Positions 18,394-32,769 of a stretch of DNA of 64,000 nt are shown in pieces. Every line of letters starts with the position of its first letter. The first letter of the stretch is position 1. Source of the stretch: Syntrophomonas sp. (GTDB lineage Bacteria > Bacillota > Syntrophomonadia > Syntrophomonadales > Syntrophomonadaceae). The stretch is taken from contig JAENZE010000007.1 of assembly GCA_016841425.1 (NCBI GenBank), forward strand, positions 1-64,000, in the 5' to 3' direction. A program made the translations under genes and the position numbers. Under the pieces are notes generated by a model that saw only the letters and a program-made list of their open reading frames with translations, was not told where the DNA came from and did not search any database.

Positions 18394-18539
18394 CTATTTT
18401 TACTTAATAATTTCGAATATTGATTCCTTCGAGAAGCATCATCCTCACTGTTATCTACTGATTCATAGGACCTTCCACTACCATTATTGATTTAAGAAAA
18501 AGAAAACAATCACTAATGTCAAAATTTTCTGATAATTTG

Positions 18540-18568
18540 TTGACAATAAGTACCTCACTGAATACAAT
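18540..18568 (+). promoter_or_regulatory. near-consensus sigma-A promoter
   Basis: TTGACA (18540-18545), exactly 17 bp, TACAAT (18563-18568). The predicted start is near 18575. No Shine-Dalgarno sequence or plausible coding frame follows, so it appears to drive the non-coding RNA. Confidence 0.85.
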
Positions 18569-18574
18569 ATAAAT

Positions 18575-19172
18575 ACCAGGATTTAAGTTTAACCTTGAAT
18601 CCTGATAATCACCCTAAAGATTAGGGTTGGTTCTCACAAAAGTAATTTTAGCAGGAATTAAAAGACATAGTCAGATGTCTGGAAAAACCTCTAAACACAA
18701 CTTGAGTGGGAACAAAAAGATCAAAATCTTGCAGGGTGATATATACAGGATGAAGGTGGAACTGGAAACCCAGGGCCCACCTGGACGAAGAGGGATGGTT
18801 CTTATAAAAGTAAATTTTAGCAGGAAATCACCGGTCAATGGATGAAAGTTCAGAGACCCGGCAGAAACTCTAAAATGAGGCTGAGTAAGAACTAAAACCT
18901 GAATCAGAAGGGAGAAATTCAGGGAAGACAGGGAAACTGCAATCCTGACAATTACCCCGAAGTGGAAGAAAAAGTTCTTTAAGAGATTATTTTTAGAAGG
19001 AAAGCAGACAAATGGATGTAAATCCATCCTGGTGGAATCTAAAAGAAATCTGCAGAACAATGACTGAAACTAAAGGGTGATTAATCCACAAGGGAGGTAC
19101 TAAATGTACCCTAACCAATCTCCAACGTAAGAGGGCTGGCACGAAACCACAAGGCCGGCTCTCTTACATTTT
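18575..19172 (+). ncRNA. candidate large structured non-coding RNA (~600 nt)
   Basis: This stretch lies between a near-consensus promoter and a GC-rich terminator and has no supportable open frame. It is dense with local hairpins: GACAT/ATGTC, AAGAT/ATCTT, AGGTGG..CCACCT, CCTGAAT/ATTCAGG, ATGGAT/ATCCAT, GGTAC/GTACC. TAATCACCCT (18606-18615) is perfectly complementary to AGGGTGATTA (19074-19083), which would close the molecule over ~460 nt. Inside are three diverged repeats of ~170 nt, each opening with GTTCT and AAAAGTAA/TTTTAGCAGGAA-like sequence and closed by a complementary GAAC segment. The closing pairs change in compensation between repeats 1 and 2. It could be a known ornate class (OLE, ROOL, GOLLD, raiA) or a new one; I cannot assign it by eye. 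Exact ends are estimates. Confidence 0.75.
19127..19171 (+). terminator. intrinsic terminator of the structured RNA
   Basis: GTAAGAGGGCTGGC (19127-19140) pairs fully, with G-U pairs, with GCCGGCTCTCTTAC (19154-19167), followed by ATTTT. Confidence 0.8.
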
Positions 19173-19245: not shown

Positions 19246-19423
19246 AGTCCCAATGTTTTCGAGTTTTATTTTTTGCTTTTGGGATAAAATATAACGGACT
19301 CATTCCTCTAGTACTTAATACTGGTAATACCTGACAGGTTTTTAACCTTTGGAGATGGTAGAATAAAAGCAAATGTATGATTTTCTTTCCATTATTATTG
19401 AGCGAGCAGGTAAGGAGAATTAT

Positions 19424-32476: not shown

Positions 32477-32495
32477 TAAAAGGTAAAATATTAGT

Positions 32496-32622
32496 GGTAG
32501 GCCAAAGTCTCTGGAAGAGACACGGGGGAACCAATTAATGGGGCGAATTCTCGGCAGGTGCCGGGATAGGGCTGCCCGAGTCCGAGTCCGTCAGCTAACC
32601 CCGTAGGCGTTGCGGGCAGTAA
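32496..32622 (+). promoter_or_regulatory. c-di-AMP riboswitch (ydaO-yuaA type)
   Basis: It contains the conserved blocks of the ydaO aptamer: ACGGGGGAACCAATT, TGGGGCGAATTCTCGGCAGG, ATAGGGCTGCCCGA and TCCGTCAGCTAACCCCGTAG followed by GCGTT. The class binds cyclic di-AMP and usually switches off cell-wall and osmolyte genes. Here it precedes a glycine betaine ABC transporter, which fits c-di-AMP control of turgor. I see no clear intrinsic terminator before 32770, so the expression platform is unresolved. Confidence 0.88.
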
Positions 32623-32769
32623 CCAATGGCAATGTATTTATTCGCAATAGTGCGGTATTTATCCATCCTATAATTTCCAGTATTTATATATTAGCTGCCA
32701 CCTATAGCTCTTAATTGTACGCGCCTTCTCTTATCCTTCGCTATGGCCTTCCAGCGAGGAGGTTTCTTA

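Follow-up and report, generated by a model that had tools for sequence, protein, structure and literature searches.

The standalone structured RNA is a known kind of gene. Dual-function small RNAs, such as SgrS, RNAIII and SR1, combine a regulatory part and an open reading frame (ORF) in one molecule, and leader-peptide attenuators, such as those of trp, tna and erm, place a short ORF with its own Shine-Dalgarno sequence before a terminator-like hairpin. When very short ORFs are expressed, peptidyl-tRNA can be shed and translation inhibited as a result; one such minigene is found in an operon leader and affects the following gene in cis (PMC8708949). The so-called ornate RNAs, which include OLE, ROOL, GOLLD and raiA, are large, heavily structured and bacterial; ROOL, GOLLD and OLE form RNA-only complexes, and ribosomes are reported to associate with GOLLD in pull-downs (PMC12286853).

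Here, we describe an RNA gene at positions 18540-19172 of the window (the whole stretch of 64,000 nucleotides of Syntrophomonas sp. DNA that was analysed), together with its relatives, which, judged by sequence comparison, form a family of structured RNA genes in bacteria of the Syntrophomonadaceae that had not been catalogued before. Its members resemble the ornate RNAs in size, structure and bacterial origin, but differ from them in that they match no covariance model, are not phage-linked in the loci examined, vary in body length and domain number, and carry a 3' masked Shine-Dalgarno sequence with a micro-ORF as well as a dedicated promoter element. As in dual-function RNAs, the ORF within the RNA appears to be under selection (frame, start and stop are kept in 30/32 loci); unlike those of SgrS, RNAIII and SR1, it has 6-8 codons, is 3'-terminal and fused to the terminator, and seems to be selected for its existence and not for its sequence. 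The short ORF and Shine-Dalgarno sequence preceding a terminator-like hairpin recall the trp, tna and erm attenuators, whereas the lack of a conserved downstream gene, the convergent genes at several loci and the hundreds of structured bases before the ORF do not. Minigenes likewise have a few-codon ORF whose translation, rather than product, would matter, but the micro-ORF described here seems not to lie in an operon leader acting on the next gene, in contrast to the published example. Overall, the family would work most like a mixture of an ornate and a dual-function RNA, and by the tests available it belongs to no described family. A large RNA gene family without an Rfam entry is rare, and, to our knowledge, a masked, terminator-fused micro-ORF combined with a helically phased private promoter element was not known before. 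In our main reading, to which we give a probability of about 0.4, these standalone genes would encode a regulatory RNA that engages ribosomes through its masked 3' micro-ORF.

The RNA gene in the window

Direct reading and folding of the sequence delimit a consensus promoter, a strongly folded transcript and a terminator, all on the forward strand. The promoter, TTGACA-17-TACAAT at 18540-18568, is kept in all congeners (four genomes). The folding energy of the 603-nt transcript is -193.3 kcal/mol, compared with -135.9 +/- 7.5 for shuffled sequences (z -7.7), and 0/20 shuffles fold as well. A 5' hairpin, CAGGAT...ATCCTG at 18577-18604 (alignment columns 102-129), is paired in 5/5 sequences and is followed by three structured domains. 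Domain 1 (18608-18740), closed by the P1 stem ATCACCCT/AGGGTGAT, is the sole domain of the orthologue in the congener G002. Domain 2 (18791-18899) repeats domain 1 (repeat families D1 and D2) and has a GNRA-type loop (GAAA), and domain 3 (18950-19082), recognised from the repeats and the alignment, has a P1-like stem ATTACCCC/GGGTGAT and a GNRA-type loop that reads GTAA here and GCGA or GCAA in relatives. Further downstream, a Shine-Dalgarno sequence, GGAGG at 19093-19097, is predicted to be masked by the hairpin GGTAC/GTACC (19096-19100/19106-19110) and precedes an 8-codon micro-ORF running from ATG to TAA (19104-19130; MYPNQSPT); on its own this ORF would seem negligible, but its start, stop and frame are kept across the family. 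Its stop codon lies inside the 5' foot of the intrinsic terminator hairpin (19127-19167), the arms of which are GTAAGAGGGCTGGC / GCCGGCTCTCTTAC (19127-19140 / 19154-19167), and the terminator stem carries a compensatory A-U to G-C change between congeners. An antisense ORF of 129 codons (18671-19060) is not conserved in the closest orthologues.

The observation behind the original prediction, made from the window sequence, is confirmed: the promoter and the terminator said to bracket the locus are both present and conserved in congeners, and the dense hairpins it described agree with the z-score given above. It had, however, found no credible coding frame at the locus, and in doing so overlooked the conserved 8-codon ORF behind GGAGG. 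Its interpretation is partly supported, as set out below.

Extent of the family

Searching with a covariance model of the 91-nt tail (R1) brought up a second locus within the genus as well as loci from further genera, and a model rebuilt on 17 tails (R2) extended the set; the loci from the tail models and those from a scan for the promoter element make up the 32 loci analysed. These lie in 23/54 Syntrophomonadaceae genomes and 9/23 genera, and, as they share descent, their counts overstate the number of independent events and the statistics given below indicate consistency, not independent trials. With BLASTN, the RNA is recovered from each of the four other genomes of the genus but from none outside it. 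An absence of conservation beyond the species had been named at the outset as evidence against a functional RNA, and the 32 loci instead span nine genera. The window genome has two copies, the second of which (G000 contig C18, 100440-100770; L054) is ~255 nt long, has one domain and the micro-ORF MFIQKPPK, and is convergent with a TOBE/Mop-type gene. On one contig (L109), two family RNA genes flank a gene resembling that of an FAD-binding protein, and the same genome has a further copy of the upstream element (L124).

The tail model finds no member in nine genomes of the order's other two families, and a sample of 398 genomes of the phylum yielded none after inspection; in the large genome sets few candidates were scored per genome, and very diverged relatives could be missed. 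Seven genomes outside the family gave matches to the tail model, as did G005, G018 and G076 inside it, but all of these proved to be ordinary terminators without element, GGAGG or ORF. Neither the element nor the tail is present in G025, a single-contig genome of 2.94 Mb from another genus of the Syntrophomonadaceae, and the distribution of the RNA family is therefore patchy.

Upstream element and promoter

A dedicated DNA element of 20 nt, AAGAAAAAGAAAACAATCAC, lies upstream of the promoter at 18494-18513. A genome-wide scan of the window genome finds it with 0 mismatches exactly twice, at both RNA genes, and elsewhere only at 3 mismatches; a clear element close to it is present in all but three of the 32 loci. 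Across 84,980 species, the element pattern has 32 matching stretches. Those in the Syntrophomonadaceae carry the RNA tail, except for one fragment duplicated by an insertion sequence (IS), and those elsewhere, in Flavobacterium, Enterovibrio and others, do not. The gap between the element and the -35 box measures 5 bp (10 loci), 15 bp (5), 25 bp (6) or 26 bp (8), the gaps of G001m, G028 and G064 having been set by eye (25, 25 and 26). Gaps of 5, 15 and 25-26 bp are spaced one helical turn apart, as would be required of a protein that contacts RNA polymerase from one face of the DNA. We infer from this arrangement a dedicated activator that would bind the AAGAAAAAGAAAACAATCAC-type element.

CodY may act as an additional regulator at some loci. 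A CodY-like box, AATTTTCTGATAATT at 18523-18537, has one mismatch to AATTTTCWGAAAATT; boxes with at most three mismatches occur in 15/32 loci. In genus g2 and at loci of the 25-26 bp class, the CodY-like sequence falls between the element and the -35 box, and the window genome has a codY gene (302.8 bits). As a separate observation, Syntrophomonas DTU019 has two copies of the promoter region of one of its RNA genes (L116, 2635-2654 and 6200-6219), with transposase-like genes between them; one copy is truncated before the -10 box.

The structured body

Sequence comparison places the conserved parts of the gene in the promoter and the tail, and the transcribed body is its least conserved part: identity to G004 is 44-50% in the domains, compared with 91-95% in the upstream element and box and 88% in the Shine-Dalgarno sequence plus ORF. 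Body length ranges from about 200 to 600 nt across the family, and the window copy has three tandem domains, as seen from repeats and alignment, where the congener G002 has one. Because of this variation, the 'ornate' RNA of ~600 nt put forward in the original prediction stands as a structured and promoted RNA, but not as one fixed fold. The GNRA loops of the domain hairpins are interchangeable (GAAA; GTAA/GCGA/GCAA). Most members outside the genus start with a hairpin, CCAG-GAA-...-AGUA-CUGG, which in sequence resembles a loop E and has a small loop, of GNRA or UUCG type in several members. The body is closed by a P1 stem with pairings such as UACCCUG/CAGGGUA, CACCCU/AGGGUG, UAUCCUG/CAGGAUA and CGCUCCC/GGGAGUG, and the two P1 strands pair better with each other (-15.2 kcal/mol) than when swapped between subfamilies (-12.7) or shuffled (-9.8). 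Eight type-A RNAs, which form one subfamily, show compensatory change in 23/68 consensus pairs. A body motif, GUUCUYAYAAAAG, was considered as a mark of the family and set aside, being found in just 13/32 loci. An internal repeat expansion marks the body in G019 (L070, ~450 nt before position 1501), where a ~60-nt unit, GGTAAATTTACCAGAGACCAAAAAAAAAAGCCC, is present in several copies.

The best surviving alternative, which we still regard as unlikely, builds on this structure: the body alone would be an ornate regulatory or scaffold RNA, and the micro-ORF would just coat or stabilise its 3' end. Folding z-scores over 17 loci run from -4.3 to -9.9 for full RNAs and from -1.9 to -8.7 for bodies without the tail, so that bodies fold significantly by themselves in most loci, and GNRA and loop-E-like motifs are typical of tertiary structure. 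What a body-only RNA does not explain is that conservation sits in the promoter and tail, with the body as the least conserved part.

Genomic neighbourhood

At the five y-type loci, all in congeners, yitT lies directly downstream and codirectional, and the neighbour on the other side varies (NfeD in three of five; in G004 and G002 another gene, divergently oriented). Elsewhere, the downstream genes include a convergent TOBE/Mop-type gene, an HTH regulator, a GNAT acetyltransferase and others. The convergent mop gene of the m-type loci ends ~22 nt from the terminator, and downstream genes are also convergent at G013, G074 and G035. No neighbour gene recurs across genera. Since the neighbours are unrelated, the RNA is taken to be a standalone gene, for which a general cis-regulatory role is unlikely, and the NfeD and YitT neighbours to which the original prediction had drawn attention are present at the window locus but incidental. 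A gene for a superfamily 6 holin (L107, 2952-3308; Pfam Phage_holin_6_1, E 7e-21) lies directly upstream of a g3 type-B RNA.

These arrangements bear most directly on a cis-acting attenuator, in which a sensor domain would stand in front and translation of the micro-ORF would block the overlapping terminator, leading to readthrough into the downstream gene, here yitT. The stop codon within the 5' foot of the terminator at nearly all loci is the classical geometry for such a device, and yitT is codirectional at 5/5 y-type loci, but the variable downstream genes, convergent in several cases (mop, G013, G074 and G035), and a spacing of ~250 nt between the RNA and yitT make it improbable. A codirectional downstream gene conserved across loci, as would mark a riboswitch or attenuator, was not found, and a yitT leader as the general role of the RNA is refuted by unrelated or convergent neighbours. 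Within the region between the RNA and yitT (window 19257-19380), pieces are kept in five congeners, one TTTTGCTTTTGGGATAAAATATAA-like and one a palindrome, ACCTGACAGGT, and these are perhaps yitT's own promoter and operator.

The masked micro-ORF

The main reading, a ribosome-engaging RNA, draws on the 3' tail. GGAGG is present in 32/32 tails and is followed 6-11 nt later by an NTG start codon (ATG, GTG or TTG). In 30/32 loci this frame runs for 6-8 codons before its first stop, compared with 1/32 and 0/32 in the other frames, and this stop (TAA, TAG or TGA) lies at the terminator foot in nearly all loci. Among 17 representatives, 16 show the arrangement, where shuffled tails lead one to expect 0.41 and reach at most 4 in 20,000 simulated sets. 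The frame is preserved at each of the lengths observed, 18, 21 and 24 nt. Start codons interchange among ATG, GTG and TTG and stop codons among TAA, TAG and TGA, and inner codons change their amino acids: the peptides differ between congeners (MYPNQSPK, MYPYQSSK and MYPYQSLK) and share no sequence across subfamilies (MYPNQSPK, MFIQKPPK, MISTAQK, MYNYTK and MYETLK). Because codons vary while start, stop and frame are kept, selection seems to act on the ORF being translated and not on the peptide. ORFs of 6-8 codons, which annotation ignores, can thus be under clear selection.

The Shine-Dalgarno sequence is predicted to be paired in nearly all loci (mean probability of being unpaired 0.18); its partners are mostly codons of the ORF itself, the start codon being placed in the loop. 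The masking pairs differ by subfamily (GGUACUG/CAGUACC, GGAGGU/ACCUCC and GAGG/CCUC), and the masking hairpin could keep the ORF normally silent, a point against the main reading. In G027 and G073 (L071 and L072), CAA or CAG replaces the stop codon at the foot of the terminator and the ORFs extend to 15 and 10 codons, which speaks against the main reading; the same two have the least masked Shine-Dalgarno sequences of all loci (0.56 and 0.60 unpaired in the predicted folds), a coincidence of stop loss and weakest masking which hints that the two features belong together.

Two further explanations, both of low probability, also start from the micro-ORF. The RNA might be an mRNA encoding a micropeptide that acts as a cytoplasmic signal, in which case its 5' leader would work like a riboswitch and unmask the Shine-Dalgarno sequence. 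The predicted masking in nearly all loci and the long structured leader would suit such an mRNA, but not peptides that lack a common sequence across subfamilies and differ even between congeners. Equally doubtful is a minigene-type brake, in which many copies of a very short ORF would occupy ribosomes or shed peptidyl-tRNA when nutrients fall. Peptidyl-tRNA shedding by very short ORFs is known (PMC8708949) and the CodY-like boxes suggest nutrient control; however, the last sense codons vary (K, T, E, Q, N, R, I, L and others), so that no single tRNA is targeted, and a brake of this kind does not need a long structured body.

Proposed mechanism

Comparison of the loci shows an anatomy of upstream element, promoter, 5' hairpin, P1-closed body with a single domain or several, predicted masked GGAGG and start, ORF and terminator, and the conservation of these parts. 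In the proposed model, a dedicated activator on the upstream element, with CodY at some loci, would make transcription condition-dependent, nutrient control being exerted through CodY. The 3' end of the RNA would then capture a ribosome at the masked start site; once the masking hairpin opens, the short ORF would be read and the ribosome would come to a halt, or pause, at the terminator stem. What would matter functionally is that a ribosome occupies the RNA, whether this serves to dock the RNA on ribosomes or to hold or report translation capacity; the structured body would bind a partner or act as a gate, and the micro-ORF peptide itself would not be the product. Taken in full, this would amount to a new bacterial RNA machine with its own activator, in which a ribosome captured at a masked, content-free micro-ORF jams on the terminator and occupancy is the output, a picture that we put forward tentatively. 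The unique promoter element in helical register, the masked ribosome-binding site and an ORF apparently selected just for being translated offer handles for experiments, and make it directly testable what ornate bacterial RNAs do and whether ribosomes are their site of action.

Relation to catalogued RNA classes

With Rfam 15, no family reaches its gathering score on the window RNA and nothing lies near it even at E <= 10; cmscan of 15 relative loci found no Rfam family either. This Infernal-type search bears out the proposal of an undescribed RNA class. Membership in OLE, ROOL, GOLLD or raiA, to which the original prediction had likened the RNA, was rejected, there being no covariance-model match to them in the window, in the 15 relative loci or at relaxed E-values, and the likeness is not one of homology. 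ARAGORN finds no tRNA or tmRNA in 15 loci. A mobile or phage element was also set aside: the genome has 2 copies only, and viral contigs have none, the matches to the upstream-element pattern in IMG/VR being without the RNA tail. An RNA that sequesters CsrA, like CsrB or RsmZ, has a negligible probability and is rejected, as the 19-24 GGA triplets per ~610 nt in G000, G001 and G003 equal the counts in dinucleotide shuffles, the GGA-rich look thus being due to dinucleotide content, many GGAs are predicted to lie in stems, the one-domain orthologue has just 4, and no Rfam match was obtained. A search of the open-access literature found no description of the window RNA. The sole Rfam match in the window is a c-di-AMP (ydaO/yuaA) riboswitch at 32490-32624 (78.7 bits).
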